56,373 nt of DNA. It comes from a virus. Location of the stretch: the IMG/VR virus record IMGVR_UViG_3300029319_007099, positions 1 to 56,373 of that record; one strand, written 5' to 3'. The position numbers and the translations under genes were made by a program. Below, piece after piece: positions 18,615-43,942 of this stretch. The notes below the pieces were generated by a model. The model did no database searches. It was given only the letters and a program-made list of their open reading frames with translations, and was not told the origin of the DNA. Every line of letters starts with the position of its first letter. Position 1 is the stretch's first letter.

Positions 18615-18912
18615 AGAGAATGATCTCAACCGAGAGTTGAGAAAACAAAAGCGTGAGAAAGGAGAGATTTCAATTCTCTTCGTTTCTCCTTGGGATAAAT
18701 ACTGCACCGCTCTGATGGAGAAGTTAGAGAAGAGGTACGACAGCAATGTGAAAGGCGGGAAGCCTTTGTATATCGTAGACAACTACAATATGCCTCACTC
18801 TTTTGTCATCTTCAAGAGCAGTGTGCTGCCTCACCTAGTTACCATCAAGCGTAACAAGGTAATCTCTGAGGACTACCTTCCCATGGTATACAAGAACCTA
18901 GACCTAGAGTAA
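18586..18912 (+). CDS. Thioredoxin-fold protein lacking the first active-site Cys (WDKYC)
   Basis: 108 residues from ATG 18586 (GAGG 9 nt upstream; a GTG at 18568 is less likely). It reads like a thioredoxin: ISILFVSPWDKYCTALMEKLEKRY aligns with the strand-WCGPC-helix unit, with Asp-Lys-Tyr replacing Cys-Gly-Pro and only the second Cys kept. The later VLPHLVTIKRNKVI fits the cis-Pro strand and final strands. Without the first Cys it cannot do normal dithiol exchange. T7 uses thioredoxin as a processivity clamp for a family A polymerase independent of redox activity, and this gene lies 345 bases before a family A polymerase cistron. The link is speculative. It converges with and overlaps the sigma gene by 9 bases. 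Confidence 0.5.
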   Translation: MKYKIVKLSKENDLNRELRKQKREKGEISILFVSPWDKYCTALMEKLEKRYDSNVKGGKPLYIVDNYNMPHSFVIFKSSVLPHLVTIKRNKVISEDYLPMVYKNLDLE

Positions 18913-19245
18913 GTCTTTTTTTAGTTCTGTATACGCATCTAGCTTTTCACTATACTTTTTGTTTTTAGTGTATAAAAGCTTGAGGTTATTGAGTATAATA
19001 GTTGTGAAGTAGTTAAAAGCGTTGCCCATTTCAGGGTTAAAGTTTTTGAGTGTTTTGAGTATTAACACAAAACACTCCTGCTTCGCATCGTCCTCTTCCA
19101 GGTTGAACGAGAATCCTGTGATGATGTTTGATATGAGTACATCGAACATTGCAAAAAGCTCGTCCTCATGTTCCTTGGGGTTTCGCTTGTAAAGCTTGAT
19201 TAAGCTTTCAAATTTATTGTTATCTATGTAATGCTTCTGACTCAT
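18904..19245 (-). CDS. 55: Late-transcription sigma factor (T4 gp55-like)
   Basis: 113 residues on the minus strand. The section LEEDDAKQECFVLILKTLKNFNPEMGNAFNYFTTIILNNL is a sigma region 2 pattern: acidic residue and Gln near a helix, 'F(N/D)P-x-x-G-x-(A/P)F-x-YF-x-x-I-x-x-N', as in gp55 proteins of T4-like phages that recognise the TATAAATA late promoter. No region 4 follows, as for gp55, and the length is somewhat shorter than T4 gp55 (185). TATAAT lies five bases before the ATG, in a 12-bp gap shared with the divergent polymerase cistron, so both may be switched on together. Late promoter candidates are listed at 4903, 11971 and 51276. Confidence 0.65.
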   Translation of the reverse strand: MSQKHYIDNNKFESLIKLYKRNPKEHEDELFAMFDVLISNIITGFSFNLEEDDAKQECFVLILKTLKNFNPEMGNAFNYFTTIILNNLKLLYTKNKKYSEKLDAYTELKKDLL

Positions 19246-19257: not shown

Positions 19258-20274
19258 ATGAATAACTTACACACTTTGTACGCCGCAGAAGAAGTTCAGT
19301 CACATTGTAAGGATTGTTCTATTCTTCTGAAGAAAAAGCCAGTCTATTGCGTGGAGGATTACAAGAAGTTAAAGCAGTCAGATGTGCTTTTCCTGTCTGA
19401 TTCTATCAAACACAGGTTTGGAAAGTCCTACGCTTTCTCAAAACAAGAAATCGAAATTATATCTGATTTTTTTCCTGGAGATACATATCAGATGGCTGCA
19501 TCAGTAAAGTGTCCGTCTGTTAAGGAAGCCGATATGAGTCCAGCAAACATGGAGGCTTGCAGGAACTACCTTCAGGCCACTATTGATAAGGTAAAACCGC
19601 GCCTTGTTTTTGTGTGCGGCAACTTAGCCATGAAGATGCTGATAAAGAAGAGCGGCATTACAGACAAGAGAGGTAAATCTTATGATTATTCAACTGATAA
19701 CGGGCATGATTGCGTTGTTGTTCCTATCTTTCATCCTTATTCTGTGGTTAAGGAACCTCGGCATAGGGTATTATTCGAGACGGACATCAGGAATGCATAC
19801 GAGAAGTATGTACTTGGCAAGACGCACGAAGGAAAACTCGAATACAAAGTCTTAACAGACATACAGGAAGTGGTGCATCTGGCAGAAAAGCTAAAGGACT
19901 CAGAAGAAACGCTGGCAATGGATATTGAAACCACAGGCCTTAACTTCCTAACTGACAGTATTCAAACGATAGCTATTTCATCTAGAGAGACAAACTGGGT
20001 GATCCCATGTGACCATAAGGATTCTCCTTTCAGAAAGGGTGAGCCTGACTACGGGAAAGTCTGGACTTCTTTGCGGAAGATTCTAGAGAATCCCAAGAAC
20101 AAAAAGGTCTTTCACAATGCCAAGTTCGACCTCAAGTTTCTACTTAACTATGGGATCTATACTAAGAATGTGTGGGACACTAAGATCATGCACCATCTTC
20201 TTGATGAGAACCTACCTAAGAGTTTGATGGATTTGGTTAAGCTTTATTTCCCGACCGAGCTTGAAAGCCTTTAG
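19258..20274 (+). CDS. DNA polymerase cistron 1: family-4 UDG-like domain plus N-terminal part of 3'-5' exonuclease
   Basis: 338 residues. Residues 1-185 resemble family-4 uracil-DNA glycosylases: iron-sulfur Cys pairs C17/C20 and C85/C101 in standard spacing, CGNLAMKML, and FHPYS near 159. The usual GExPG catalytic motif is not visible, so activity is doubtful. From about 195 a DnaQ/Pol I-type exonuclease begins: Exo I MDIETTG (D222, E224) and Exo II HNAKFD (N287, D291). The protein ends soon after 'KSLMDLVKLYF', before Exo III, which is in the next plus-strand cistron. So the exonuclease site is divided between two polypeptides. Its last 38 bases overlap the lipoprotein gene on the other strand. 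Confidence 0.8.
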   Translation: MNNLHTLYAAEEVQSHCKDCSILLKKKPVYCVEDYKKLKQSDVLFLSDSIKHRFGKSYAFSKQEIEIISDFFPGDTYQMAASVKCPSVKEADMSPANMEACRNYLQATIDKVKPRLVFVCGNLAMKMLIKKSGITDKRGKSYDYSTDNGHDCVVVPIFHPYSVVKEPRHRVLFETDIRNAYEKYVLGKTHEGKLEYKVLTDIQEVVHLAEKLKDSEETLAMDIETTGLNFLTDSIQTIAISSRETNWVIPCDHKDSPFRKGEPDYGKVWTSLRKILENPKNKKVFHNAKFDLKFLLNYGIYTKNVWDTKIMHHLLDENLPKSLMDLVKLYFPTELESL

Positions 20275-20740
20275 CTATTTTTTCTAAAGCCTCGATCCGA
20301 GCTTCGTTTTTCTTCATTACTTGATCTTGTTCATCGTCCCTTGCGTCAATGTCCGCTTGGGAGACGGTGTTATGGATAGATCCAAATTTCTTGAACCAAG
20401 TTCGACCTTTCTTACTAAAGAGGGGAAGGAATACAAAGAGGATTAAATACCAATAACCCAGTGTCTTAATTAAACCACCTGTTTCGTGTAATGTAGATGC
20501 CGTAGTCCCTTGTACTGGTCCTGCACCTGCTACCTGAGCTACGACTGCCGCAGGGCTCTGAGAGGGGAAGATCATTTCTGTAACCATCACTCCACCTGCG
20601 GCCCCTGCTGCAACTGCTGCTGGCTCAGGGACAAAGGCTGCAACCGCACCTGCTCCAGCAGCACCGCCAATGGCGTGTTTAATTGTGCCGCACCCAGCCA
20701 ACATTAACATTAACGATATACTTATTACTGCGTTTCTCAT
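20237..20740 (-). CDS. Phage lipoprotein lying inside the split polymerase locus
   Basis: 167 residues on the minus strand from ATG 20740. MRNAVISISLMLMLAGCG is a lipoprotein signal with lipobox L-A-G-C (C17). Next is a Gly/Ala-rich region, then one membrane helix (about 108-123, YWYLILFVFLPLF), then a basic, Asp/Glu-rich helical tail (about 125-167). A lipid anchor plus a transmembrane helix suggests an envelope protein such as a lysis/spanin-like, exclusion or adsorption-blocking factor. I cannot choose among these. It sits tail-in over the end of polymerase cistron 1 and 36 bases from the divergent start of cistron 2. A second lipoprotein is at 31049. Confidence 0.6.
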   Translation of the reverse strand: MRNAVISISLMLMLAGCGTIKHAIGGAAGAGAVAAFVPEPAAVAAGAAGGVMVTEMIFPSQSPAAVVAQVAGAGPVQGTTASTLHETGGLIKTLGYWYLILFVFLPLFSKKGRTWFKKFGSIHNTVSQADIDARDDEQDQVMKKNEARIEALEKIAKGFQARSGNKA

Positions 20741-20776
20741 TGATTTTTTGGTTCCATTGACCTCTAATATATAGCC

Positions 20777-21256
20777 ATGCTTACCATACAAAACCCCAAT
20801 AAATTTGATTGGTCCTCCATGTCATTGTCTGACTGTTGTGAGGGTAATGCGATGGACTCCTACTTTACCTTGAAGCTTTTTGATTTGGTTCATGAAAAGT
20901 TAGAGGATTTAGGTGTTTTACGCTTTGCTGAGAACATCTTTTCAGATGCCATGACCACTTTTGCTGAGATGGAATATGAGGGCTTATTGGTAAGCGATGA
21001 TAAGCTATCAGTTCTGGAGAAGGAGTTGTACGAGTTAACTCTAAACCAAGAGGATGACCTATACCTGTATGATCAGATACAAAAGAAAGATAATCTGTCC
21101 TCCAACAATGATTTGATAGACATCTTTTACTTAAGAGAGGGAGGCTTTGAGTTTTATCCTCCTGATAAGACAGCCAAAGGGTCTCCTTCGGTATCAGCAC
21201 CTACACTTAAAATTTTACTAGAGCAAATCAATGAGGAGATTGTCAGACGATCATGA
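20777..21256 (+). CDS. DNA polymerase cistron 2: Exo III motif and thumb region of family A polymerase
   Basis: 159 residues. The first 40 continue the exonuclease exactly where cistron 1 stops: DWSSMSLSDCCEGNAMDSYFTLKLF carries the Exo III-type Asp (D27) in A-x-D-x3-T, as in Pol I. Then MEYEGLLVSDDKLSVLEKEL matches the Pol I segment 'ME-x2-G-(I/L)-x-(V/L)-D-x3-L', and KTAKGSPSVSAPTLKILLEQ the 'K-T-x-x-G-x-PS(V/T)-x-x-(E/T)-x-L-x-x-L' hallmark at the end of the thumb. No long thioredoxin-binding insertion is seen. TAATAT is six bases before the ATG, with no Shine-Dalgarno. The stop overlaps the next start as ATGA. Confidence 0.8.
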   Translation: MLTIQNPNKFDWSSMSLSDCCEGNAMDSYFTLKLFDLVHEKLEDLGVLRFAENIFSDAMTTFAEMEYEGLLVSDDKLSVLEKELYELTLNQEDDLYLYDQIQKKDNLSSNNDLIDIFYLREGGFEFYPPDKTAKGSPSVSAPTLKILLEQINEEIVRRS

Positions 21257-22374
21257 GTGCAAAGTGGCAACACAGAGACGAAGGCAAGAAGATAAGTAAG
21301 AGCGTCATCAGATCTAAGTCTTTGGATGAATTAAAAGATGCATCTAAGTTCATCACGCAGCTTTTGGAGCTAAGAAAAGCTCAGAAGCTGCAAAAAACTT
21401 ATATCCATGGCACAAAAAAAGCATTGGACTACAATGAGAGCGGTAAGCTTTATGTGGATTACAGACTTGACGGAACAGCTACAGGGAGGCTTTCGTGTGC
21501 AGCGTATAATGCTGAGAAGCCCATGGGTGTTTCTTTCCACACCTTACCTAGAGAGACTACCACAAACATTAGAAGTATGTTTGTGGCACCAAAAGGTAAG
21601 GCTTTTGTGACGGTTGATTACGCTGCCATGGAACTGCGTGTTCTTGCTCATATAGCCAAAGAGAAGAGTATGCAACACGCTTTTAAATCTGGCGCGGACC
21701 TACACTCGTACACTGCTAGACTCCTGTTTAATAAAGAAGATATCACTAAAGAGGAGAGGCAGATAGCTAAGACTGTATCCTTCTTAATCGTTTATGGTGG
21801 TGGTGCTTTCAACTTATCTGAGACTATGGCTATCCCTTTGGATAGAGCGGAAGAGATTATTAGTAATTACCAAAGAGTTTACCCTGGCATCTTTAGGTAT
21901 ATGGAGTTTGTCAACGACTTCATTAAAGAGAATGGTTATGCCTATACGATCTTTGGAAGGAGAAGAAATCTTCCTGATGTTAGAAGCAAAGATAGGTCTG
22001 TTATTAATAGGGCTCTTAGACAGGGCCTAAATTTCACCATTCAAAGCTCTGCATCAGATATCCTTTTGTGTAGTTTGCTAGGTGTCGCAAAGAGGTTCAA
22101 AGAAAATTCTTTGGATGCTAAGGTTGTCGCAACTGTTCACGATAGTTTAGAGATTATTTCCTCAGAGAAAGATTTAGAGGCTTGCCTAGAGATAGTCTAT
22201 GATGAACTAGTAAATTACCCCAACCTGCGTAGGCTCTTTGGAATTAACTTTGATGTTCCTTTAGCTGTCGATTTTGAGGTTGGCAGGTCGTTCGGTGATG
22301 GTAAGGATGTCACTTTTGCTGACAATAAGCCTACAAACCTGGACGATATTCTAGCATATCTAAAGGAAAACTAA
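21253..22374 (+). CDS. DNA polymerase cistron 3: palm and fingers of family A polymerase
   Basis: 373 residues with all three family A polymerase motifs. Before them: LLELRKAQKLQKTYI and DGTATGRLS. Motif A is VTVDYAAMELRVLAH with catalytic D122; motif B (O-helix) is R169-x3-K173-x3-F177-x3-YG; motif C is VHDS with D297. Phe at 177 corresponds to E. coli Pol I F762, so dideoxynucleotides should be poor substrates (T7 has Tyr). It overlaps cistron 2 by ATGA in another frame, so the two are probably translated as partners; a sequencing frameshift is an alternative. It replaces the T4 family B polymerase gp43 and is followed by gp47/gp46-like genes. Confidence 0.9.
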   Translation: MSAKWQHRDEGKKISKSVIRSKSLDELKDASKFITQLLELRKAQKLQKTYIHGTKKALDYNESGKLYVDYRLDGTATGRLSCAAYNAEKPMGVSFHTLPRETTTNIRSMFVAPKGKAFVTVDYAAMELRVLAHIAKEKSMQHAFKSGADLHSYTARLLFNKEDITKEERQIAKTVSFLIVYGGGAFNLSETMAIPLDRAEEIISNYQRVYPGIFRYMEFVNDFIKENGYAYTIFGRRRNLPDVRSKDRSVINRALRQGLNFTIQSSASDILLCSLLGVAKRFKENSLDAKVVATVHDSLEIISSEKDLEACLEIVYDELVNYPNLRRLFGINFDVPLAVDFEVGRSFGDGKDVTFADNKPTNLDDILAYLKEN

Positions 22375-31500: not shown

Positions 31501-32745
31501 ATGGAAAAACTAAAGATTTTATGTTGCCCAGCCAATGATGGTGGGTGCAGTTATTACAGGGCTTGGTCACCTTTTGCTAAACTTGCAGAGAAGTTTCCTG
31601 ATTTAATTGAACTTCGGTTCGACAAAAATCCTCTAGGACTAGACCCAGAAAAAGGTCAGTGGGACGAGAGTTTTGATTTTGAAAATATGAAGTGGGCAGA
31701 CATTGTTATGACTCAAAACATCTGCAACTGGGGTGGTCCTTACACTGCTCGCATTGTAGGTAAGGCAAAAGAGTTTGGCAAGTTCGTACATTTCGATACT
31801 GATGACCTTCTAACCGAGTTGTATGATGGACACAGACTAAAGCAAGTTTATGAGGAGCGAGGGCTTTCAGATATAACTAAATTCATTTACGCTAACTCAG
31901 ATTTAGTTACGGTCACACAAAGAAAGTTTGCTGAAAGAATACATGAGTATTGTGGTGGTGTTTTAGCCGTTATCAAGAACGCTATTGATTATAATCTGCC
32001 TTGCTGGAATGTTCCTAAGTCTAGACCTAGAAAGAAGAGAGTTGTTAGGATAGGCTGGGCAGGAGGTATTCACCATGAGGAGGATGTAAAGGAATTCGCT
32101 GGAGTGCCTCACTTTGTTAACCAGCGCGTTGGAAAAGAGAATGTTGAATGGCACTTCTTCGGTCGCCCACCCCGAGTTCCTGGTGAAGAGCAGACTGATG
32201 AGTGGCAGTTTGATGTGTGGAAAAACTACCAACGAATTCTGTTGCAGGGATTTAAAGGCGCAAACAATTGGTTCATTCATGATGCCATGTCTACAGATAG
32301 GTATGGAGAAATATTCTCTCATGTTGATCTTGCCATTGCACCTTTACAGATGAATGCTTTTAATGATTCTAAATCAGAGATTAAGGTCGCTGAATGTGGC
32401 AGATACAAGATACCTTTAGTGGCCTCGAATGTTGGCTGTTATGATGAAACAATTAAAAACGGAAAGACAGGGTATTTGATAGATCCAGGCGCACCACCTA
32501 AAGATTGGGTTAATACTCTAACGAAGATAATCAAAAACCCAAAACATAGATTAGAGATGGGACAGAACTTACATAATCTTACAGAGGAATACTTTGATTT
32601 GAATAAAGTAGTAAGGTCCCGTTTGGAGTTGTATAGAGATGCTTTCGACTTGAGAGGTGCGAAAGATCTTCATGAAAAAATGTGTGCTTTGTTAGGGGAA
32701 GGGAGCCCCGAGACTTATGATTTACCAGTGTTACCCAAAAAGTGA
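31501..32745 (+). CDS. Glycosyltransferase (GT4-like, GT-B fold)
   Basis: 414 residues. The C-terminal half has the GT4 pattern: IGWAGG..., YGEIFSHVDLAIAPL, then FNDSKSEIKVAECGRYKIPLVASNVGCYDETIKNGKTGYLI, where the E-x6-(G)-x2-P(L/V)(V/I)ASN nucleotide-sugar loop is clear. The N-terminal half (GCSYYRAW... and IVMTQNICNW) is the acceptor domain. Donor is probably a nucleoside-diphosphate sugar and the acceptor unknown. First gene of the sugar cassette, starting only four bases after the terminator T-run and without a Shine-Dalgarno. The next gene overlaps its end by 29 bases. Confidence 0.82.
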   Translation: MEKLKILCCPANDGGCSYYRAWSPFAKLAEKFPDLIELRFDKNPLGLDPEKGQWDESFDFENMKWADIVMTQNICNWGGPYTARIVGKAKEFGKFVHFDTDDLLTELYDGHRLKQVYEERGLSDITKFIYANSDLVTVTQRKFAERIHEYCGGVLAVIKNAIDYNLPCWNVPKSRPRKKRVVRIGWAGGIHHEEDVKEFAGVPHFVNQRVGKENVEWHFFGRPPRVPGEEQTDEWQFDVWKNYQRILLQGFKGANNWFIHDAMSTDRYGEIFSHVDLAIAPLQMNAFNDSKSEIKVAECGRYKIPLVASNVGCYDETIKNGKTGYLIDPGAPPKDWVNTLTKIIKNPKHRLEMGQNLHNLTEEYFDLNKVVRSRLELYRDAFDLRGAKDLHEKMCALLGEGSPETYDLPVLPKK

Positions 32746-33532
32746 ACATAAAAAGGACTTGTTCAAGGAGGGTCCTTACAAGGGTTTCGGCTTGGAGCCT
32801 GGAGTGAATAAACTATTAACTTTGAATTGTCCTGAGCTAAGAGATCCTAAGACAAGAATGCAGTTGACAGAGTATGCTTGTTTTTTGTGGCATTGGAGAA
32901 ACCCTGGGTATGATACTGATACTTGGTTTGGGACCACTTCTTTTAGGCAGTTAGATAAGTTTCCCCATATATTCAAATCTAAGGATGAGATCAGAGACTT
33001 ATTGGCTGATAATAAAATTGTTGGGTGGGGTGAGTACGATTGTTACGCAGTAACTAGAAAACCGTCTCCTAAGATGATAGAGGATCATGGATTAAAGGTG
33101 AACAATCTACCTGATGATGGCGCTTTTGCGATACCCATATCCCTCAAAGAGCAAGCTGATTTATGTCACCCAGGAATCAGCGACTACATTGAGTTCATGT
33201 TTAAGAAGTTTGGTCATACGATCCCTGATGATTGGAGTAAAGTGACCCGAGGCTTTTATGCAAACTACTGGGTTATGAGTAAAGAGTTATTGAATGATTT
33301 CATGAACTTCTCTTGGCCTATGGTGAAGTGGAGTCTGGAGAATATAGAGATAACTCATTACTATAATATTCAACCTGTTTATGGAACTGTGAGCAACAAT
33401 AAGGCTACGGGATACTTCATGGAGAGATTATTTATGCTCTGGTATCTGTCCAGGGGGATTACACCCTATAACCCTTCCGAACCCAGCCAACTAATGAACA
33501 AGTACGAATGGGAGGGGGATTATGCTGAATAG
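32717..33532 (+). CDS. Glycosyltransferase-like protein, family uncertain
   Basis: 271 residues. It contains a WHWRNPGYDTDTWFG-type aromatic motif early and a late YFMERLFMLWYLSRG segment. Together these resemble DUF4422-type and related capsule or LPS enzymes that move galactose-like sugars ('hello-wave' of W/H/N and a C-terminal R-x-x-x-W-L). No DXD is obvious. It overlaps genes on both sides (29 and 11 bases), so it belongs to the same transcript. The assignment as a glycosyltransferase is from faint pattern and context. Confidence 0.45.
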   Translation: MIYQCYPKSEHKKDLFKEGPYKGFGLEPGVNKLLTLNCPELRDPKTRMQLTEYACFLWHWRNPGYDTDTWFGTTSFRQLDKFPHIFKSKDEIRDLLADNKIVGWGEYDCYAVTRKPSPKMIEDHGLKVNNLPDDGAFAIPISLKEQADLCHPGISDYIEFMFKKFGHTIPDDWSKVTRGFYANYWVMSKELLNDFMNFSWPMVKWSLENIEITHYYNIQPVYGTVSNNKATGYFMERLFMLWYLSRGITPYNPSEPSQLMNKYEWEGDYAE

Positions 33533-34406
33533 TTACTGCACCTTATCAGATATAAATTATTTGGACCGAGGTTTAGCATTGTACACATCCTTATGTGAGC
33601 ATTCGACAGATAAGCCTTGGATTTTGAGTTACCTTTGTTTGGATGATGAGTCTTACAAGAAATTAGTTCAGTTAGATCTACCTTATATGCATGTTTATCA
33701 TATCGAACAGTTTGATATAAATGAAGACTTGAAAGAGGCAAAAGGTAACAGGGATAGGAAAGATTATATCTTTACTTTGGCATCATACTTCAGCGACCAC
33801 TTATTAAACTCTTTGGGTCATGACAGTATCTTCTACATGGATTCTGACATTTATTTTTATGATGATCCACAAACCATTATTGATTGCTGCGATGAGAAGG
33901 ATTGTGGCATAATGCTGCACAGACACAACTTTGTGGGGCATAGAGATGGAGGCTTCAATGTTGGGGTGGTGTGGTTTAAAAACTCTGATAAAGGTAAAGA
34001 GATTTTGTCTTGGTGGAAGAACGCTGTGCTAAAAAAGGAGCCAAAGGAGCTTTCGATCATGGGAGATCAGAAGTATTTGGAAGCATTCATTCCTATGTTT
34101 GGAGAGGATTCAGTTAAGATTATTGATGAGGACATAGGACATGGAGCCCCTTGGAACTTTAGGCTTTATGTTTATGATGATTTCAAAGACAAAGGAATCA
34201 TAGGATGGGGTGACAAAAAACAGAAGTTGGTGTTCAATCACTTCTCACAATTCTGGTATGATTTGAATGAGAAGAAGATTTCATTTGATAACAATGTTTA
34301 TGGTCACCTGACATATAATGGTGCTGTCTTCATGGTTCCCGAGGTTTATGGTATGTATGAGGGTTACTTTTCAGCGTTAGCGGAGGTTAAAGAAAAATGG
34401 CTTTAA
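33522..34406 (+). CDS. GT-A fold glycosyltransferase (GT8-like)
   Basis: 294 residues. The opening (CTLSDINYLDRGLALYTSLCEH ... LSYLCLDDESY) and FYMDSDIYFYDDP with a D-x-D near residue 107 match the family of GT8-like LPS/capsule transferases that begin '(F/Y)-x-T-x-x-D-x-x-Y-x-x-R-x-L-A-L-Y-x-S-L'. The D-x-D binds metal and nucleotide sugar. HRHNFVGHRDGGFNVGVV... and a C-terminal HFSQFW complete the pattern. GGGAGGGGG three nt before the ATG supports the start. It overlaps both neighbours by about 10 bases. Confidence 0.75.
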   Translation: MLNSYCTLSDINYLDRGLALYTSLCEHSTDKPWILSYLCLDDESYKKLVQLDLPYMHVYHIEQFDINEDLKEAKGNRDRKDYIFTLASYFSDHLLNSLGHDSIFYMDSDIYFYDDPQTIIDCCDEKDCGIMLHRHNFVGHRDGGFNVGVVWFKNSDKGKEILSWWKNAVLKKEPKELSIMGDQKYLEAFIPMFGEDSVKIIDEDIGHGAPWNFRLYVYDDFKDKGIIGWGDKKQKLVFNHFSQFWYDLNEKKISFDNNVYGHLTYNGAVFMVPEVYGMYEGYFSALAEVKEKWL

Positions 34407-35284
34407 AAATAGCTTTTGGTATGATTGTGTTTGAGGGCGATTATGTTTTACATGAGGCGCTAGAATCTGTTTACCCATACGCAGAACAGATACTTATTGC
34501 AGAGGGTCCAGTGCAGTTTTGGCAAGATAGAGGTAAGGTAACATCTACAGATAAAACGAATCAAATAATTGATAACTTTCCTGATCCTGAGGGTAAGATC
34601 TCCATTGTTCACGGACAGTTTGCCGAAAAAGATGAGCAGTGTAGAGCATACATGCCGTTCTTAAATGATGATATAGATTACATTTGGAATCTTGATTCTG
34701 ATGAGGTATTCAAAGGCGAAGATATCGAGAAGATAATTGAAATTTTGGAGAAAGAAAAGTACACTTCTGTGGGCGTCAGAAGCTGTTCTTTTTACGGCGG
34801 GTTCAACCATTACATAAGTGGTTTCGAGCAAATGAAGGACAATTTTTTGCGGATTTTTAAGGTATATCCTGGGGCAAATTGGCTCACGCACAGACCACCG
34901 ACAATAGTGGCTCCCGAGGGAGTTGAGACTTTGCCAGAGAAACACTTAGATAGCGAAACTTTGTGGAGAGATCACGGTGTACAGATGTACCACTACTCTT
35001 ATGTTTTCCCAACTCAAGTAAAGAATAAGTTAGAATATTACAAGGCCAAAGTTAGTAAGCAGTATTGTCACCCTAATTACTTTGATGATATTTATTTACC
35101 GTGGGTAACAGGCAACCGAGAGGTTGAGAAAGCTTGGAAAGGTGTGCATGAGTTTAATCCTAATATAAGAATGCACTCTTTTACAGAAGAGTTTAGTGGC
35201 TCTCATCCTGTAGCAATACTTAAGAGTATGGACAAATTAACAACGAGATTACATGACGAATTACAAAGATTCTTGGAAGAATAA
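34397..35284 (+). CDS. GT2-like glycosyltransferase (GT-A)
   Basis: 295 residues. A strand-helix start (IAFGMIVFEGDYVLHEALESVYPYAEQILIAEGP) then IWNLDSDEVF with a D-x-D-type LDSDE near residue 98 is the GT2 nucleotide-sugar site for transferring hexoses from UDP- or GDP-sugars. HDxGVQMYHYSYVF and KxKLEYYKAKV follow in the C-terminal half. It overlaps the previous gene by 10 bases and the methyltransferase by 32 bases, the tightest packing in the cassette. Acceptor unknown. Confidence 0.7.
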   Translation: MALKIAFGMIVFEGDYVLHEALESVYPYAEQILIAEGPVQFWQDRGKVTSTDKTNQIIDNFPDPEGKISIVHGQFAEKDEQCRAYMPFLNDDIDYIWNLDSDEVFKGEDIEKIIEILEKEKYTSVGVRSCSFYGGFNHYISGFEQMKDNFLRIFKVYPGANWLTHRPPTIVAPEGVETLPEKHLDSETLWRDHGVQMYHYSYVFPTQVKNKLEYYKAKVSKQYCHPNYFDDIYLPWVTGNREVEKAWKGVHEFNPNIRMHSFTEEFSGSHPVAILKSMDKLTTRLHDELQRFLEE

Positions 35285-35879
35285 AAAAGTTTTTGAGGCT
35301 CAACTCGCCCTCAATGAAAAAGAGTTAGACGCTTATCCCTTCCATTGGAATTGCTTTTTGGCTGCCATGGGGTTCTTAAAAGATAAGCCTAAATCGTTTT
35401 TAGATTTAGGTTGTGGATGCGGCGTGTTCTCTCAGATTTGCAATACGCACTTTCCTGAAATGCAATACAAAGGTGTTGATTATGCACAGGAGGCAATCGA
35501 AACAGCAGCTAAAAGATGGGGAGATTCAGACTTTATTTGGGAAGTTAAAAACTATAATGATTTATGTGGCGATGATCTAAATTTCGATGTCCTACACGCT
35601 GGCGCTATGTTGGATGTTCTGCCTGACGCAGATGAGGCCTTGAGTCATTTGTGTCAATTAGGTTATGAGAATCTAATTTTTGGTAGGATGAAAATTATTG
35701 GAGAGGACAGCAGGGTTGAAACATATGAGGCTTACGATTTAATAACAACTTATGCATTCTACCACAACCAGGACTATCTTCATAAAACACTCCAAAGCAA
35801 CGGCTATCACTACGCTGTTGTGGGAAACCCAGACAACGCCACCGTGGTTGCATCAAAAAAGGAATTAACTTTTGATTAA
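35253..35879 (+). CDS. SAM-dependent methyltransferase (class I)
   Basis: 208 residues. FLDLGCGCGVFSQ near 48-60 is motif I of Rossmann methyltransferases, YKGVDYAQEAI is motif II with the ribose-binding acidic residue, and LNFDVLHAGAMLDVLPD is motif III/IV. Probably methylates a sugar or small molecule rather than DNA, judging by its neighbours. The start ATG lies 32 bases inside the GT2 gene. The aminotransferase begins inside its last bases at a TTG. Confidence 0.75.
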   Translation: MTNYKDSWKNKKVFEAQLALNEKELDAYPFHWNCFLAAMGFLKDKPKSFLDLGCGCGVFSQICNTHFPEMQYKGVDYAQEAIETAAKRWGDSDFIWEVKNYNDLCGDDLNFDVLHAGAMLDVLPDADEALSHLCQLGYENLIFGRMKIIGEDSRVETYEAYDLITTYAFYHNQDYLHKTLQSNGYHYAVVGNPDNATVVASKKELTFD

Positions 35880-36783
35880 TTTATTTAATTTAAATAATTA
35901 CACCGTAGACTTAGGATCTTTTGATCATCATTTACATGGAAGCATAGTCACCGAGTTTGAACAAGAATTTTGTTCTTATGTCGGTGCAAAGCATGGCTGC
36001 GCTTTGAGCAGTGCCACAAATGCCATTTTTTTATCTTTGTTAGGCAAGAACACTGAGGTTACAATACCAAGTCTAATACCTCCTGTTGTGGCGAATGCAA
36101 TCGTGAATTCAGGCAATAAGGTAGCATTCAGAGACCAGATTTCATGGGTGGGTGATAGTTATCTTTTACACAACTTTGGTGATTATAAGATAGTTGATTC
36201 TGCACAAAAGGTCGAAAGAAACCAATTCGCTCAATGTGATCCGCAAGATCTTATGTTTTTTAGTTTTTACCCCACAAAACCTGTAGGTGGCATTGATGGG
36301 GGTATAATCGTTTCCGACGATGAAGAAAAGATTAATTGGTTTAGGGAGGCGTCGATGAACGGCATGAGCTACGCAGTACACAACTGGGAGAGAAAGCAGA
36401 AGTTCCCAGGGTGGAAGATGTACATGAACTCTTCACAAGCGTATGTGGCGCTTCAAAACCTTAGAAAACTAGACGAGAAGAAGCGTCGGCTGGCAGTAAT
36501 CAGACTAAGGTACAATAGACACTTTAATGAGGTCAACACCAGCGACCATCTGTATAGAATAAATGTAACTGATAGATCAACTGCAATGCAAACTCTTAAG
36601 GAGAAAGGCATTGTGTGTGGAATCCACTATGAGCCTCTACATAAGTCCGAAGTATTTTTTAGTGACGATTCTCTGCCTTGGTCGGAGAATGAAGCAAAAA
36701 CAACAATGAGCATTCCTTTTCACGAAGCCATGACAGATGAAGAGGTCGATAAGGTGATCACCGAAGTTGGTAAATTTATCTAA
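35872..36783 (+). CDS. DegT/DnrJ/EryC1-type PLP aminotransferase (sugar)
   Basis: 303 residues, shorter than the usual ~370. Family marks: the EQEFCSYVGAKHGCALSSATNAIFL opening, VTIPSLIPPVVANAIVNSG, and the FSFYPTKPVGGIDGGIIVS segment holding the PLP-binding Lys. Missing length is mostly in the C-terminal domain. These enzymes put an amino group on nucleotide-activated keto-sugars, as needed for dTDP-amino sugars, matching the ketoisomerase and epimerases downstream. TTG start at 35872 with AAGGA 9 nt upstream. Confidence 0.8.
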   Translation: MINLFNLNNYTVDLGSFDHHLHGSIVTEFEQEFCSYVGAKHGCALSSATNAIFLSLLGKNTEVTIPSLIPPVVANAIVNSGNKVAFRDQISWVGDSYLLHNFGDYKIVDSAQKVERNQFAQCDPQDLMFFSFYPTKPVGGIDGGIIVSDDEEKINWFREASMNGMSYAVHNWERKQKFPGWKMYMNSSQAYVALQNLRKLDEKKRRLAVIRLRYNRHFNEVNTSDHLYRINVTDRSTAMQTLKEKGIVCGIHYEPLHKSEVFFSDDSLPWSENEAKTTMSIPFHEAMTDEEVDKVITEVGKFI

Positions 36784-37336
36784 AAGCATAGCTTTGGTAG
36801 GATCTAGTGATATCCTTCTGGATAATGATTATGGAGACTTGATAGACTCGCATGACCAAGTTGTAAGATTTAATAATGCCATTGTCACAGGCTATGAAAA
36901 ACATGTAGGAGCGAGAACTGATATTAGGGTTTCCAACCCTCATGTTTTTGATGATCACCCTGATCACCACATTCATGATGTTAGACCAGGGAGTTTAAAG
37001 CATCGGCAGGACAATCCTGAGGAGAAGTATGATTTAGTTCACGCTAATTCCTACAGACAGCCCTTATTACTGCATACTCTAACTCATGGAATACCTGAAT
37101 GCCCTACCGCAAAGCAAATCCAGAAGGAGTACACAGTGGGCACCAGTTTCGTCATACTGTGTGTGTTAGAGGGGATAGTTCCTAGTCTTTTTGGATTTAG
37201 TTTGGATATGGATAGGAGAGGAACACATTATTGGCAAGATAGAGAAGCCCCCAACATGGTTGGACATGATCAACTACAAGAACAGCAACTTCTACGGGAG
37301 TTGTCGCAAGCTAAAAAGATAAAGGTTTACCAATGA
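36767..37336 (+). CDS. Sialyltransferase-like glycosyltransferase (GT29 family pattern)
   Basis: 189 residues, TTG start inside the aminotransferase gene. It shows the GT29 landmarks in order: the L-motif IALVGSSDIL...GDLIDSHDQVVRFNNAI followed by VGARTDIRV; an S-motif-like GTSFVILCVLEGIVPSLFGFS; then the late HYW and the VS-motif-like HD-x4-E-x2-LL. Known GT29 enzymes transfer sialic acid, and some relatives Kdo-like ulosonic acids, from CMP-donors. The CMP-sugar synthetase, Kdo8P-synthase-like and aldolase genes next to it supply exactly such a donor. It is short for an animal GT29 but bacterial and viral forms are minimal. Donor and acceptor are unproven. Confidence 0.75.
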   Translation: MVNLSKSIALVGSSDILLDNDYGDLIDSHDQVVRFNNAIVTGYEKHVGARTDIRVSNPHVFDDHPDHHIHDVRPGSLKHRQDNPEEKYDLVHANSYRQPLLLHTLTHGIPECPTAKQIQKEYTVGTSFVILCVLEGIVPSLFGFSLDMDRRGTHYWQDREAPNMVGHDQLQEQQLLRELSQAKKIKVYQ

Positions 37337-38229
37337 CAAAAACAGTTATTCCCATCCCTCCCTCTTTTAACAAAGGGGGTCTCATGATAGAACATCACCA
37401 AACCTTTGAGTATCTCCAATGGTTATACTCAAAAGGGATAGATGAAGTTATGACAACCGCAGGAACATCTCAATTCAATATGATGAATAATCAGGAGATT
37501 TGTCATTTTAATGAGACTGTTGGCGCGTGTTTTCCAGGAAGAAAGATTTTAGGTGTTCCTGCATACAACACCTTTGACATGCAGATTTTCATAGACGATA
37601 TCAAAGGTAAAGAGATAAAAAACGCATGTTTTATGCTTCTTTATCCTGATAGATTTTATGACACCGAAACACTAGTTGATTATTTTAAAGCAGGTAGCGA
37701 TGCTTCTGAGGGTCCAGTGTATTTGCATGACATGGGTATGCGTAATGGAACTGGAGGTTCTTGGGAATACACTGCTGACTTGATAAATGATATGTATGCT
37801 CAAGGAATCATAAAAGGTATTAAGGAGGAGCATTCCACACTAGATTCTGCTTTTAAGTTTGTAAGTAGGTTGGATGAGGGCCTCGATGTCATCGTTGCAG
37901 GAGGAAGCATGAGAAGACATCAATTCCTTCGACACGCAGGGGCTAATGCCTTTTTGGGTGGGATAGGTAATTTAGCACCAGAGGTCGAGCTTGAATACTG
38001 CTCTTTAGTGGATCAAGAGTACACCAAAGAAGCTAAAGAGGTCGATTTCTTATTGCAGAAAGAAACTACCCTGTTTGAAACTTTTATGAAATTTGGATGG
38101 CACAGATCTTTAAGAGAAGGAATATCACAAATAGGATGTGGGTGCGACTATGATAGAATGCCTTGGCCTAAACGCGACGATTTTTTCAAGGCTGAGATAA
38201 AAAATTGTCTGGAGAAAACAATAAAATGA
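37333..38229 (+). CDS. DapA/NanA-family pyruvate-dependent aldolase
   Basis: 298 residues with a (beta/alpha)8 Schiff-base aldolase pattern: MTTAGTSQFNMM (the family's GT-x-SEF/T-like segment in altered form), and IIKGIKEEHSTLD, where the Lys fits the catalytic 'G-(I/V)-K-(D/E)' Schiff-base residue. AFLGGIGNLAPE follows as the late (G/S)G-x-x-N-x-x-P motif. Members include dihydrodipicolinate synthase and sialate lyase, which join pyruvate to an aldehyde or sugar. In this setting it may make or adjust a 2-keto-3-deoxy sugar acid. Coupled by ATGA to the GT29-like gene before and the Kdo8P-like gene after. Confidence 0.72.
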   Translation: MTKTVIPIPPSFNKGGLMIEHHQTFEYLQWLYSKGIDEVMTTAGTSQFNMMNNQEICHFNETVGACFPGRKILGVPAYNTFDMQIFIDDIKGKEIKNACFMLLYPDRFYDTETLVDYFKAGSDASEGPVYLHDMGMRNGTGGSWEYTADLINDMYAQGIIKGIKEEHSTLDSAFKFVSRLDEGLDVIVAGGSMRRHQFLRHAGANAFLGGIGNLAPEVELEYCSLVDQEYTKEAKEVDFLLQKETTLFETFMKFGWHRSLREGISQIGCGCDYDRMPWPKRDDFFKAEIKNCLEKTIK

Positions 38230-39032
38230 AAGATAAAGTATGGCTTCTAGGTCCCTGCTCTTTGGAGGATAGGGACACATTTATGTTTACATTAAGCATG
38301 ATTAGTGCTGAAATGACACCTGAAGATGATTGGTACATGAAAGCCAGTTTCGATAAGGCGAATAGAACATCTTTACATGGAGGTCGAGGCCCTGGCTTAG
38401 ACTACTGTAAGGATGTATGGGCAGAAGCTAAGGAGTTATACCCTGGCACTAAGTTCATTACGGATGTTCACGAAACCCATCAAGTTGAGCAGTTAGTGGG
38501 CCATGTGGATGCTATTCAGATCCCTGCGTTCTTAGGTAGGCAGACAGACTTAATTGTTGAGTGCGCCAAGCATTTCGATAAGATTAACATTAAGAAAGGG
38601 CAGTGGTTAGGCCCTAACAACTTGATTAAGTCTGTGGATAAAGTAAAAGAGGTTAATCCTGATTGCGAGGCTTGGATTTGCGACAGAGGCACCAATTTTG
38701 GTTACTATGATCTTTTCGTGAATTTTGGAATCGTTGATGAGCTTAAAAAATATTATGATAAGGTCATACTCGATTGCACTCATGCGACTCAAAGATCTAG
38801 GGGTGTTTACGGCAAACAAGGAGATCCTATTCTAGCGGAGAGGTACTTCATGGCTGCAAACCTCTTTAATTACGATGGTGTTTTCGCAGAGATTCACCCT
38901 AGACCTAATGATGCGGTCTCAGATGGAGATTGTCAATTAAGCGTCTCACAGTTCAGAGAAGTCTTGAAAAAGACGAGAATGATTGACGCTCTCCCACCTG
39001 TGGGTAGGCATCATAGAGTTGTGGGGGACTAG
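38226..39032 (+). CDS. kdsA: 3-deoxy-manno-octulosonate-8-phosphate synthase (KdsA-like)
   Basis: 268 residues from ATG 38226, in ATGA overlap with the aldolase stop; the TTG at 38205 is not needed. Clear KdsA marks: GPCSLEDRD, KASFDKANRTS, the TDVHETHQV strand with metal ligand, IQIPAFLGRQTDL, NIKKGQW, CDRGTNFGYYDL, and the late ILDCTHATQ. Kdo8P synthase condenses arabinose-5-phosphate with phosphoenolpyruvate to make the core LPS sugar Kdo. Length (~270) fits the family (280). Host arabinose-5-phosphate would be needed. A neuraminate synthase would look different (SAF domain), so Kdo8P is preferred. Confidence 0.88.
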   Translation: MKDKVWLLGPCSLEDRDTFMFTLSMISAEMTPEDDWYMKASFDKANRTSLHGGRGPGLDYCKDVWAEAKELYPGTKFITDVHETHQVEQLVGHVDAIQIPAFLGRQTDLIVECAKHFDKINIKKGQWLGPNNLIKSVDKVKEVNPDCEAWICDRGTNFGYYDLFVNFGIVDELKKYYDKVILDCTHATQRSRGVYGKQGDPILAERYFMAANLFNYDGVFAEIHPRPNDAVSDGDCQLSVSQFREVLKKTRMIDALPPVGRHHRVVGD

Positions 39033-39698
39033 TTGAGACGGTTAGCTGTAATTCCCGCAAGATCAGGCTCAACCAGACTAAAGAATAAGAACACATTCCC
39101 TTTAGGAGGGAAGCCTCTTATTCGTTGGATGACTGAGGCTGTTATTAACTCTAAGTGTTTTGATAAAGTTATCATCTCGACAGACGGATCACACATCTTT
39201 GATGCTGTAGAAGATTTGCCTGTCGAGAGGCACTACAGACCCGACAGCCATGCCACAGTTAGGGCAACCGTACTTGATGCCATGATAGATCTCATGGAAG
39301 GTGTGCAAGAGGAGTATGATGTTTTCTCTTATTTCCTTCCTACCTGCCCGTTCATTAGTCCGTTGGACATTGTGAAGGGCGTAGAAGCTTTGGATCCTAG
39401 CACAGACACCGTTATTAGCATGACTGAAATTCCAGAGACACTACAACTTGCCTGTGTTATGAAAGATGATTGGGTTTTGCCTGTCTATGATAATTTAGAA
39501 CTGGGAATGACAAATAGCAAGTTCCTAAAGAAGTATTACAAACCCTCTGGTGCGTTTTACATGGGGTGGTGGGACACAATCATACAGAATAGAAACTTTT
39601 TTAAGGGCAGCACCAAAGGAGTTCGCATCCCTCAAGAGAGATCAATAGATATCAACGACATCTATGACATACAATTAGCAAATAATTTATTAACATGA
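39033..39698 (+). CDS. CMP-ulosonic acid synthetase (NeuA/KdsB family)
   Basis: 221 residues. VIPARSGSTRLKNKN with the adjacent LGGKPLIRW is the nucleotide-binding start of the CMP-sugar synthetase family; the ARSGS and KNKN arrangement is nearer to acylneuraminate cytidylyltransferase than to KdsB (which has IPAR-x-x-S-x-RLPGK). It ends with RSIDINDIYDI, the metal-binding D-x-(N/D)-x-x-D. It activates a Kdo- or sialic-type acid with CTP for a transferase such as the GT29-like protein. It begins at a TTG directly after the KdsA-like stop, with GGGGGA 5 nt before it. Substrate choice cannot be decided. Confidence 0.78.
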   Translation: MRRLAVIPARSGSTRLKNKNTFPLGGKPLIRWMTEAVINSKCFDKVIISTDGSHIFDAVEDLPVERHYRPDSHATVRATVLDAMIDLMEGVQEEYDVFSYFLPTCPFISPLDIVKGVEALDPSTDTVISMTEIPETLQLACVMKDDWVLPVYDNLELGMTNSKFLKKYYKPSGAFYMGWWDTIIQNRNFFKGSTKGVRIPQERSIDINDIYDIQLANNLLT

Positions 39699-40879
39699 CA
39701 AAAGAAACATTTCTTGATCTTGGCTTTCAGCCGATAGCAAACGGCTTCCTAAAAGAGGGTGAAACCGACAACGAGTTTTTCTTCCCTTTAGAGGTCGCGT
39801 TAGATGAGGACACCTTTCTGGTGACTCAAAAAGAGTATGTGTCACCAGAGAAGATGTTTAACGACACTTACGCTTATAGAGGGTCAATGTCCAAAACAAT
39901 GGTTGAGCATTTTAAAAATATTTCGATGACTTTGGGTGCTTACCTAGACCCAAACCCTAAAGTTCTAGAGATAGGTAGCAATGATGGTGTTTTCATCAAG
40001 AACTGGGGCACAGAAACAACTTACGCTGTTGAACCTTGCGGTAACTTTGCCAAGGAAACAAATGATCTGGGTTACAAGACTTACAGCAGGTTTTGGAACA
40101 AAGATTTATCTAACGATATTGTAGCCGAAGTAGGGACCATGGACTTGGTGTTTGCTGCAAACTGTATGTGCCATATTCCTGATTTGGAGGAGACTTTTGG
40201 CGCTGTTGCGAATGTTCTCGACAAAGAGGGCTTGTTTGTTTTTGAAGACCCCTCTTTGGCTAAGATGATAAACCTAAACTCATACGACCAAATTTATGAT
40301 GAACACGCGCACATCTTTTCTGTTCTGGCTCTTAAAAATGAATTAGAAAAAGTAGGCATGAGAATCATTCGCGTGGATGAGCTTTCGGTGCATGGTGGAT
40401 CTAATCGAATCTGGGCTGTACATCAGGATTCTTCTTGGGTTGAAAACAGTAGTGTTTCTCAAGCGTTATCTTTTGAGAGGCTTTTAGGGTTAGACATGCT
40501 AGAGGTTTACGATAGGTTTAGCACAAGAGTGGCTCAATCAAAGTTAGATCTACAGACTCTTTTGTGGTCATGTAAAGATAATGGACATAAGGTGATCAGT
40601 TATGGTGCTACATCAAAATCAACAACAATTTTTAATTATTGCGATATTGGTTCAGAGTTGATTGATTACATCGTAGACACTACACCAGAAAAGCAAGGTA
40701 AGCTCTCTCCAGGTACGCACATTCCCATTACAAAACCTTTAGGGTTGATTGAAGATGATATTAATTATTGCTTCTTGGGTGCTTGGAACTTCATGGATGA
40801 GATATCCAAAAAAGAATCAGCTTTTCTGGAGCGCGGTGGTAGGTTTATCACTCATGTTCCAATCGTGAGGTTCGTGTGA
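39695..40879 (+). CDS. Sugar C-methyltransferase-like protein
   Basis: 394 residues. FLDLGFQPIANGFL near the start is the (zinc-ribbon) signature of NDP-hexose C-methyltransferases such as TcaB9/EvaC, though the upstream Cys ligands are missing. The Rossmann core is VLEIGSNDGVFIKNW with motif I near 89-101, then MDLVFAANCMCHIPD. The EHAHIFSV and GATSKSTTI segments match the C-terminal domain of the same family. It probably C- or N-methylates a keto-sugar made by the neighbouring dTDP-sugar enzymes. ATGA overlap with the synthetase before it. Confidence 0.72.
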   Translation: MTKETFLDLGFQPIANGFLKEGETDNEFFFPLEVALDEDTFLVTQKEYVSPEKMFNDTYAYRGSMSKTMVEHFKNISMTLGAYLDPNPKVLEIGSNDGVFIKNWGTETTYAVEPCGNFAKETNDLGYKTYSRFWNKDLSNDIVAEVGTMDLVFAANCMCHIPDLEETFGAVANVLDKEGLFVFEDPSLAKMINLNSYDQIYDEHAHIFSVLALKNELEKVGMRIIRVDELSVHGGSNRIWAVHQDSSWVENSSVSQALSFERLLGLDMLEVYDRFSTRVAQSKLDLQTLLWSCKDNGHKVISYGATSKSTTIFNYCDIGSELIDYIVDTTPEKQGKLSPGTHIPITKPLGLIEDDINYCFLGAWNFMDEISKKESAFLERGGRFITHVPIVRFV

Positions 40880-41295
40880 GTGAGTTAATAGAAAAACCTG
40901 TCTTTCAAGACATTCAGTATCATGAGGATGACAGAGCCCAGAGGTACTTAAATGTTTTCCCTCATATAGAAGGACAATTAAATGTTTCGTTTGTTAATTC
41001 AACGAAGCATATAGTTGCTTGGCATAAACATGACATACAAAGTGATTTTTGGTGTTGTTTAAAAGGTTCATTTAAAGTTGGTTTAGCCACTGACGATGGA
41101 TCTATAAGGTGGGAGTATCTGTCAGAGAAAACTAATAAGGTGTTGGAGATTCCACCTGGGGTGTATCATGGCTACAAGGCTTTAGAGCCAAACTCTATCT
41201 TGATGTATCACTTGACGCATAAATACAATCCTAAGGATGAGATTAGAGCAAAGGTAGGTGCGTTTGGCGAAAAATGGGAAACAGAAAACAAGTAA
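40876..41295 (+). CDS. RmlC-like cupin epimerase
   Basis: 139 residues. A double-stranded beta-helix with the dTDP-4-dehydrorhamnose 3,5-epimerase-type segments: FVNSTKHIVAWHKHDIQSDFWCCLKGSFKVGLATDD, and the VLEIPPGVYHGYKAL helix/strand with catalytic-type His. It epimerises NDP-4-keto-6-deoxy hexoses at C3/C5. It is short (RmlC is about 180), a minimal form. Starts four bases before the stop of the methyltransferase and overlaps the next cupin by 22 bases, so the two cupins are a pair. Confidence 0.7.
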   Translation: MSELIEKPVFQDIQYHEDDRAQRYLNVFPHIEGQLNVSFVNSTKHIVAWHKHDIQSDFWCCLKGSFKVGLATDDGSIRWEYLSEKTNKVLEIPPGVYHGYKALEPNSILMYHLTHKYNPKDEIRAKVGAFGEKWETENK

Positions 41296-41705
41296 CCGTT
41301 GATGATGTTCAGTTTTACAACATGAGAACTGTTGTGGATGAGAATGGCAATCTGACCCCGATACAATCGAATGAGGCTTTACCGTTCTCTATTCAACGAG
41401 TTTTTTATGTTTATGGTGTAAGGAGTGAGGAACTTCGTGGTTGTCACGCTCACTACGAAACAAAACAGCTTCTTATTTGTTTAAACGGTAAGATACAGGT
41501 GATTTGTAAAGACGGCGAGAATGAGAGACAATTCCTTCTTGAGTCCCCACAACAAGCACTTTATGTGCCTGAAATGATTTGGGATGAGCAGTTGTATAGA
41601 TCGGAGGATTCAGTTTTGCTGTCTATTTGTAGTACAAAGTGGGATCCTAGCGATTACATACACAATTATGATGAGTTCAAAAAGATAAAAGGTTCTTTAG
41701 AATGA
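41274..41705 (+). CDS. FdtA/QdtA-like sugar 3,4-ketoisomerase (cupin)
   Basis: 143 residues. RGCHAHYETKQLLICLNGKIQV and the closing 'S..WDPSDYIHNYDEF' are the FdtA/WxcM signature (R-G-x-H-A-H, then D-Y-I-x-(N/D)-Y). FdtA converts dTDP-4-keto-6-deoxyglucose to the 3-keto isomer, the precursor for 3-amino-3,6-dideoxy sugars. With the DegT aminotransferase at 35872, this points to such a dTDP-aminosugar. Overlaps its cupin neighbour and the SDR gene on the other side (ATGA). Confidence 0.82.
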   Translation: MGNRKQVTVDDVQFYNMRTVVDENGNLTPIQSNEALPFSIQRVFYVYGVRSEELRGCHAHYETKQLLICLNGKIQVICKDGENERQFLLESPQQALYVPEMIWDEQLYRSEDSVLLSICSTKWDPSDYIHNYDEFKKIKGSLE

Positions 41706-42607
41706 GGATACTAGTTACAGGTGGTTGTGGGCACATAGGCTCAAAGTTTATTAGAAGTTACAAGAAGCACGATCTTACCGTTGTTGATAATTTATCGACT
41801 CAAAGATACTGCTCTTTGTTTTCTTTGGATAGGAACATCAAGTTTTTTAATTTAGATTTCGGTGACTTGACGCTTGATTATTTGAAGCAGTTTGATGTCG
41901 TTATTCACCTAGCAGCCATAACAGATGCACCAAGTACATTCAAAGATCCTAGTCTTTTGGAAAAAACTAATGTTGAAAAGACTAAGAGGTTCTTTGATAC
42001 TTGCCGTCTTGCTGGATGTAGGGTCATTTTTCCTTCCTCCACCAGTGTATATGGAAAAGCAGTTGATGAAGTGTTTGAGGATGATGAATCTGCACTCAAC
42101 CCACAAAGCCCGTATGCGGAGGCTAAGATTAACATAGAAAACTACCTCAGAGCCAATGATGGTAGGTTTACTATTTTGCGTTTTGGCACCATCTTCGGTT
42201 ATAGTGAGGGTATGAGGTTTCATACAGCTATAAACAAGTTTTGCTTTCAGGCAGCACTAGGAGAACCGCTAACTGTGTGGAAACAAAACTATGAACAATA
42301 CAGACCTTACTTAGGACTCAACGATTGTGTTGATGCTTTATCTTTGTGTATAGACAACGAGGACTTGGTAGGATCACAAGAAACTTACAATGTTTTGTCT
42401 ACCAATACTAGGCTGAAAGACATAGTTAGTTTCATAACAAAGGTTAAGTCTGTGAAGGTTAATTATGTTGATACGCCTTTGTTGAATCAACATTCGTATT
42501 TTGTTAATGATGATAAGATTAAATCTTTAGGGTTTTGTCCTGAGGACGATCTGTTTCATTCAATCTCAAAAACCTTGAAAGCTTTATCAGGCATAGACAA
42601 TGCGTAA
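41702..42607 (+). CDS. NAD-dependent sugar epimerase/dehydratase (extended SDR)
   Basis: 301 residues. TGGCGHIGSKFI is the Rossmann GxxGxxG site, then SSTSVYGKA with the Ser-Tyr, and YAEAKINIENYL with the catalytic Y-x3-K. The rest fits a UDP-glucose-4-epimerase / dTDP-sugar dehydratase-like fold. Exact substrate unknown. It overlaps the ketoisomerase stop and the reductase start (8 bases). Confidence 0.8.
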   Translation: MRILVTGGCGHIGSKFIRSYKKHDLTVVDNLSTQRYCSLFSLDRNIKFFNLDFGDLTLDYLKQFDVVIHLAAITDAPSTFKDPSLLEKTNVEKTKRFFDTCRLAGCRVIFPSSTSVYGKAVDEVFEDDESALNPQSPYAEAKINIENYLRANDGRFTILRFGTIFGYSEGMRFHTAINKFCFQAALGEPLTVWKQNYEQYRPYLGLNDCVDALSLCIDNEDLVGSQETYNVLSTNTRLKDIVSFITKVKSVKVNYVDTPLLNQHSYFVNDDKIKSLGFCPEDDLFHSISKTLKALSGIDNA

Positions 42608-43334: not shown

Positions 43335-43942
43335 CACAAATAAGATTAAATTTAGGTTGTGCATCTAGGTTGCTCCCAGACTACATCAACATAGACATGG
43401 ACTCATTGGATGAAATTAAGAGACGCTATCCAAACATCCAGGTTCCTGACAATATTGCTTTCTTGGTGGGTGATGCACTGAATTTAGATTTTGATGATGA
43501 ATCGGTGGATGAGGTAAGAGCAGATGCGTTGTTAGAGCACTTCTCTTTTTTAGAAGAGCCTAAGTTTTTTAGAGAAGCAGCAAGAGTGTTAAAGCCAGGA
43601 GGTGTTTTGCGATTCTCTGTTCCTGATTTTGAAGACGCAGTTCGTAAGTGGTTAGATGCGGAAGACGATTGGAAGGACTTCTTTAGAAATGATGACGAAG
43701 CTATAGAAAACAAACATTGGTTTGGTAACTACTCGTACTCCACAGAAAACAGGTGGGGTTATTTAATGGCAAGTATTTTCGGTCCACAGAATGGAGAAGG
43801 GCAGTTCCACAAGAACGCTTACACGGAGAAGAAAATTGAAGCCATATGTCAAGTCCTAGGTTTTGGACAACCTAAGATAGATAGGTTTTTATGGAAAGGT
43901 GATCGAGACCTAATGCTTGAAGTTGAGATGAGAAAGTTATGA
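43331..43942 (+). CDS. SAM-dependent methyltransferase, LPS/glycan type
   Basis: 203 residues. IRLNLGCASRLLPDYINIDMD is the start typical of small glycan-cluster methyltransferases; VGDALNLDFDDESVDEVRADALLEHF and PGGVLRFSVPD are motifs II-IV. The pattern matches methyltransferase type 11 proteins seen next to GT genes. The methyl acceptor is likely a sugar hydroxyl. Overlaps both neighbours by ATGA. Confidence 0.75.
   Translation: MTQIRLNLGCASRLLPDYINIDMDSLDEIKRRYPNIQVPDNIAFLVGDALNLDFDDESVDEVRADALLEHFSFLEEPKFFREAARVLKPGGVLRFSVPDFEDAVRKWLDAEDDWKDFFRNDDEAIENKHWFGNYSYSTENRWGYLMASIFGPQNGEGQFHKNAYTEKKIEAICQVLGFGQPKIDRFLWKGDRDLMLEVEMRKL

Follow-up and report, generated by a model that had tools for sequence, protein, structure and literature searches.

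We report a family A DNA polymerase that is encoded by three separate cistrons in a viral genome from IMG/VR (record IMGVR_UViG_3300029319_007099). The stretch analysed, positions 1 to 56,373 of that record, comprises 56,373 nucleotides (nt) and is referred to as the window. It is highly likely that these cistrons encode the replicative family A polymerase of a large T4-like phage lineage, and that the enzyme is permanently made as three chains, which would fold non-covalently into one active enzyme of the UDG-Exo-Pol type (UDG, uracil-DNA glycosylase). An earlier reading of the window, referred to as the original prediction, had proposed that a family A polymerase is spread over three cistrons, that its exonuclease centre is cut and that the parts must assemble if proofreading works. 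This central reading was supported by the absence of an intact gene in relatives, by invariant catalytic residues, by strong purifying selection on all three pieces (ratio of nonsynonymous to synonymous change, dN/dS, of 0.008-0.11 where synonymous change was unsaturated), and by five large records in which no further family A palm, family B polymerase or Pol III alpha was detected.

Organization of the three cistrons

The polymerase locus in the window contains the following features.

19258-20274, plus strand: cistron 1 (c1), 338 amino acids; UDG-like domain (family 4 type), then Exo I and Exo II
19258-19827, plus strand: UDG-like domain in c1, with invariant Cys 17, 20, 85 and 101; the domain end is approximate
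20237-20740, minus strand: lipoprotein-like cargo gene with lipobox LAGC, between c1 and c2 and covering the last 38 bases of c1
20765-20774, plus strand: TAATATATAG motif, ending 2 nt upstream of the c2 start
20777-21256, plus strand: cistron 2 (c2), 159 amino acids; Exo III segment (Asp27), end of the exonuclease domain and first part of the thumb
21253-21256, plus strand: ATGA, where the c3 start overlaps the c2 stop, read from the sequence
21253-22374, plus strand: cistron 3 (c3), 373 amino acids; remaining thumb, palm and fingers, with motif A (D122), motif B (R169/K173/F177/Y181) and motif C (H296-D297)

Coordinates and reading frames in the original prediction were all correct, as was its placement of Exo I (D222/E224) and Exo II (N287/D291) on c1, the Exo III Asp (D27) on c2 and motifs A, B and C on c3, which confirms the three-cistron family A polymerase. 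The UDG-like N-terminal half of c1 and its four invariant cysteines were absent from that description. Pfam matches were found for c1 (DNA_pol_A_exo1, the Pol I 3'-5' exonuclease, PF01612, 1e-21; UDG superfamily, PF03167, 2.5e-8, over the first half) and for c3 (DNA_pol_A, PF00476, 7e-81). No Pfam match was detected for c2, and a PHROG search gave a weak match to phrog_17. Annotated phages were of little help, because in the phage collection c2 had one weak match and the lipoprotein had none.

Profile comparisons placed the pieces along the Klenow fragment. The c2 profile, built from 63 homologues, matched chain positions 160-292 (approximately residues 483-615; E = 5e-8), and Asp27 was aligned with chain position 178, which we take to be D501 in our own numbering of the 324-928 chain. 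The exonuclease part of c1 corresponded to positions 6-136 (approximately residues 329-459) and c3 to positions 300-584 (approximately residues 623-907), with a further match of c3 to Bst Pol I (2e-58). Since the three profiles cover Klenow in order, no polymerase block is missing. Thus, the claim that reading runs on across both gaps in Pol I order held with regard to the blocks, but not with regard to the gaps themselves: positions 20275-20776 hold the reverse-strand lipoprotein gene, and the second break has approximately 37 residues beyond Klenow, including a conserved N-terminal extension of c3 of approximately 30 residues.

Pol I, or its Klenow fragment, is the textbook single-chain polymerase. 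Here, three cistrons were found in every relative read; membership in family A stands by homology, because a single chain is typical of the family rather than defining.

Conservation of the split

Scans of IMG/VR yielded approximately 200 loci (given L numbers below) with 55 distinct c1, 70 distinct c2 and 74 distinct c3 proteins. Deeper lineages were retrieved by a search with the divergent exonuclease of L053, and a search with the divergent c2 of L058 retrieved only itself. The same three-piece arrangement, which the original prediction had proposed to look for in related contigs, was present at both breakpoints in every relative read. Neither a fused nor an intact gene was found among the approximately 200 fetched loci (74 distinct c3 proteins) or in the deeper lineages L214-L229, which is the opposite of the intact gene in relatives that had been named as evidence to the contrary.

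Among 71 distinct c1/c2 junctions, 37 were compact TAATG stop/start overlaps, in most cases closely preceded by a GGAG-like ribosome site, and 34 carried inserts of 184-2403 bp at that exact point. The c2/c3 junction of relatives was an ATGA, TAATG or GTG overlap. Lineages L214-L229 were broken at the same two points, and in L214-L217 a deoxynucleoside monophosphate (dNMP) kinase gene (phrog_139, 1.6e-25) was present between c2 and c3, at the second breakpoint.

The recurrence of this arrangement in many independent contigs argues that the split is due neither to chance nor to sequencing error. Metagenomic contigs do have indels, and one contig (3300003690_000011, loci L011/L060) is frameshifted inside c2, either by sequencing error or by decay. 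Such events could in principle leave an intact polymerase gene in pieces, yet the breakpoints were identical in the 71 distinct junctions from many contigs and in the deeper lineages, each piece is under strong purifying selection, start codons in the overlaps are conserved, and the same split occurs in a contig that was deposited as part of a single-cell genome named Prochlorococcus. We therefore assign a negligible probability to an artefact of sequencing, assembly or decay. For loci L138 (QCKN01000003.1) and L010, this deposited relative of 130,604 bases, from the genome named Prochlorococcus sp. AG-409-P03, represents either a possible lead to the host or a co-sorted virus.

A second alternative is that recoding or splicing yields a single polypeptide from the three cistrons, for example through programmed frameshifting where they overlap, through ribosomal bypass or through a c1/c2 intron. 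Both junctions always combine a stop with a restart, mostly in another frame, and phage polymerase genes commonly contain introns and inteins. However, insert-free alleles still carry the stop and the TAATG restart, so removal of an insert would not restore the frame. In addition, no Rfam intron match was found in the window and five relatives, no conserved slippery heptamer was visible at either junction, and the inserts are unrelated genes of differing lengths, often on the opposite strand. Joining of the chains is thus highly improbable. A polymerase gene interrupted by an intron or intein was not supported, as the Rfam searches gave no match at the c1/c2 break and insert-free alleles stay split.

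Catalytic residues and the divided exonuclease

Residues D222, E224, N287 and D291 were invariant in all 46 aligned c1 sequences, and D27 in all 63 aligned c2 sequences. In an alignment of 51 c3 sequences, D122, R169, K173, F177, Y181 and H296-D297 were invariant (51/51 for D122, K173, F177, Y181 and D297). Both active sites also retained their catalytic residues in the deep lineages. In the DnaQ-like exonuclease, motifs Exo I to Exo III follow one another across c1 and c2, with all carboxylates present. The Tyr of Exo III (Klenow Y497, of the YxxxD motif) is replaced by an invariant Gly (G23 of c2) in the split clade.

This replacement would fit an exonuclease-deficient polymerase composed of c2 and c3, with c1 as a separate UDG-like or nuclease protein and the divided exonuclease centre as a relic. 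Pol I-type polymerases without an active exonuclease do exist, e.g., divPolA1 (PMC11348598). Against this possibility, all four exonuclease carboxylates, encoded by two genes, are invariant over deep divergence; in insert-free alleles, c1 and c2 remain adjacent and are probably coupled; and the exonuclease domain of c1 lacks its last segment, which c2 supplies. We regard a relic as improbable and favor a proofreading centre that is divided between two chains.

The UDG-like domain of c1 was recognized by a profile match to the Sulfolobus UDG 4zbx (1e-13) and by a fold match. Family 4 UDGs have an iron-sulphur cluster held by four Cys. The invariant C17, C20, C85 and C101 of c1 are spaced as in this cluster and presumably serve the same role. 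The HP motif is also invariant; an SDS sequence is present where GExPG is expected. Because the GExPG motif is not kept, glycosylase activity of this domain is doubtful.

Structure predictions were consistent with these assignments. The AlphaFold2 model of c1 (mean pLDDT 82) resembles Klenow, the apicoplast Pol and family 4 UDGs. For c2 alone, pLDDT was 75 and pTM 0.29, and all Foldseek matches of this model were to Pol I large fragments, although none was significant (best E 0.4). As lone chains, the C-terminal tail of c1 and much of c2 were predicted with lower confidence, which fits parts that need a partner.

Proposed assembly into one enzyme

In five records of 100-131 kb, each of which contained a single PF00476 palm and a single PF01612 exonuclease, neither a family B polymerase (PF00136) nor a Pol III alpha subunit (PF07733) was detected; these records are not certified complete, and this absence is not proof. 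The split enzyme was the only replicative polymerase seen in them.

Given how long the split has persisted in evolution, the three pieces very probably must assemble into one working enzyme. In the mechanism that we propose, c1, c2 and c3 would be made from one operon and would be translationally coupled where cargo is absent, as suggested by their overlaps. The 3'-5' exonuclease site would be complete only once the Asp of c2 joins the carboxylates of c1, and the thumb only once c2 meets c3. More specifically, the enzyme is probably a family A replicase that arose once and needs all three subunits. In this reading, c2 holds the third proofreading Asp and half of the thumb, switching between polymerase and exonuclease depends on subunit contacts, and both breaks act as docking points for other genes (lipoprotein, possible head proteins, glycosyltransferase and dNMP kinase).

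Several points weigh against this proposal. The change from Tyr to Gly in Exo III could alter proofreading. The low confidence of the fragment models is a weak sign of a need for partners, and the structure predictions were of single chains, with c2 alone being weak (pTM as above). Finally, the insertion origin of the breaks discussed below is drawn by analogy, no intermediate having been seen in this lineage.

In an open-access library, no publication was found that describes a family A polymerase in three parts or one with an exonuclease centre common to two chains. A stably inherited three-chain version with a divided proofreading centre offers a ready experiment on how domains communicate during polymerase-to-exonuclease switching, and could serve as a template for split or inducible polymerases. 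The phage group that carries the split is widespread and common in public virus metagenomes.

Cargo genes and possible origin of the breaks

The cargo at the c1/c2 break was varied: the window and many relatives have the lipoprotein-like gene on the reverse strand, and genes for basic proteins and a forward glycosyltransferase were also found. The same lipoprotein gene was present at the same site in the independent contigs L002, L014, L021 and L027, with the site also found in L050. Neither PHROG nor Pfam nor the phage collection contained a match for this lipoprotein-like cargo. In L021, the lipoprotein had 87% identity, compared to 60% for c2; cargo can therefore be more conserved than the polymerase that surrounds it, which suggests exchange of the lipoprotein gene between lineages. 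The basic cargo proteins start with MNxYDRIYxLLxE or MNDYELIGESIW. The cargo of L004, L006, L011, L037, L038 and L050 has common short N-termini (MNxYDRIYxLLxE / MNDYELIGESIWDTYR) that are reminiscent of the T4 capsid-targeting sequences of internal head proteins; these had no family match.

In a tree of the concatenated pieces, one branch (100/100) separated 25 split from 15 unsplit family A enzymes. Because all 25 split enzymes fell on one side of this single branch, the split most likely arose once. In the near clade, basal lineages were compact, and the distribution of compact and insert-containing states needed at least eight changes; the split thus came first and cargo later.

A second, separate phage family (L248, L252, L256 and L258) has a UDG-exo-PolA gene that is interrupted at the same loop, ahead of Exo III. 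An HNH endonuclease gene is present in this cut (phrog_374, 3e-68), and Exo III is on the second open reading frame (ORF). In contrast to the window, thumb and palm remain joined in this family; the exception is L258, where the gene is broken again between motifs A and B. By analogy, an insertion may have broken the ancestral gene of the split clade, as the HNH gene does today in the second family. Subsequent loss of the inserted endonuclease would have left the TAATG overlap of the compact form, and in some lineages the break could later have become a docking point for cargo, here the reverse-strand lipoprotein gene. No endonuclease match was found among the cargo ORFs examined in the split clade, HNH being present only in the separate family (L248/L256). 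The locus illustrates how a break in an essential gene may be made permanent and then become a landing site for cargo genes.

Candidate expression signals and neighboring genes

A TAATATATAG-like motif was present at the right end of most inserts, ending approximately 2 nt before the c2 start. It was not enriched as a genome-wide motif in the window. This motif is a candidate promoter, from which the interrupted c2 may be read with a short leader; a role for the cargo gene on the opposite strand is equally plausible. TATAAT-like boxes were found no more than 20 nt from start codons in 7 cases in the window versus 0.33 expected, although the background includes coding sequence and the excess comes partly from AT-rich spacers. 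These boxes lie upstream of 4961, 15180, 18264 (minus strand), 19245 (minus strand), 49210, 54386 and 55713, and suggest leaderless or short-leader transcripts. Scans for sigma-70 promoters and terminators around the locus gave no more matches than in shuffled sequences.

A small sigma-like protein with weak matches to Sigma70_r2 and a late sigma factor is encoded at 18904-19245 (minus strand). It is divergent from c1, with 12 bases between the two starts, and is kept beside c1 in relatives. Elsewhere in the window, a long cluster of genes for sugar-nucleotide epimerases, aminotransferases and glycosyltransferases occupies 31501-48622, and four tRNA genes are present at 54023-54831.

Comparison with known systems

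The unsplit relatives are UDG-Exo-PolA enzymes of the SPO1 type (Herelleviridae) and similar phage enzymes such as those of Lysinibacillus phage LysYB1 and ctfzr933, in which a UDG-like domain, an exonuclease and a Pol I palm follow one another. The split enzyme shares this architecture, starting with the UDG-like domain at its N-terminus and continuing with exonuclease and polymerase. In ctfzr933, the c1, c2 and c3 profiles fall at 68-342, 369-484 and 487-802, respectively. In contrast to the split enzyme, these relatives are single polypeptides, and ctfzr933 keeps the Exo III Tyr and has no extra residues at the thumb break.

Rhodothermus phage RM378, a far-T4 phage with a separate exonuclease gene, had been cited in the original prediction as having separate exonuclease and family A polymerase genes. 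This precedent proved wrong: the gene annotated as its DNA polymerase, Rm378p024, encodes an exonuclease domain of family B (PF03104, 2.6e-14) rather than a family A enzyme, and Rm378p012 is a 5'-3' exonuclease. RM378 was also rejected as a homologue, since hhalign gave no match and Pfam indicated a family B exonuclease.

The other precedent, a split gp43 in Aeromonas phages, was borne out (PMC2988022). In phages 25 and 44RR, as in the window, the replicative polymerase of a T4-related phage is made as separate chains, and the two halves from phage 25, gp43A and gp43B, purify together and show activity (PMC2988022). They differ in being family B enzymes in two parts, with an IC-UTS or Seg endonuclease at the junction. 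A family A gene split by a small ORF, and kept so in most of the group, has been described in the OM43 phages MEP401/402 (Zobellviridae; PMC10580990). However, that polymerase is in two parts, its exonuclease is whole on the first ORF, the break is within the polymerase domain, and the phages belong to another virus family. Finally, NrdA of phage Aeh1 and gp39/gp60 of T4 are essential enzymes that were split by mobile endonuclease genes and work as assembled chains (PMC2988022); these are other enzymes, in two parts at the split, compared to the three-chain polymerase described here.

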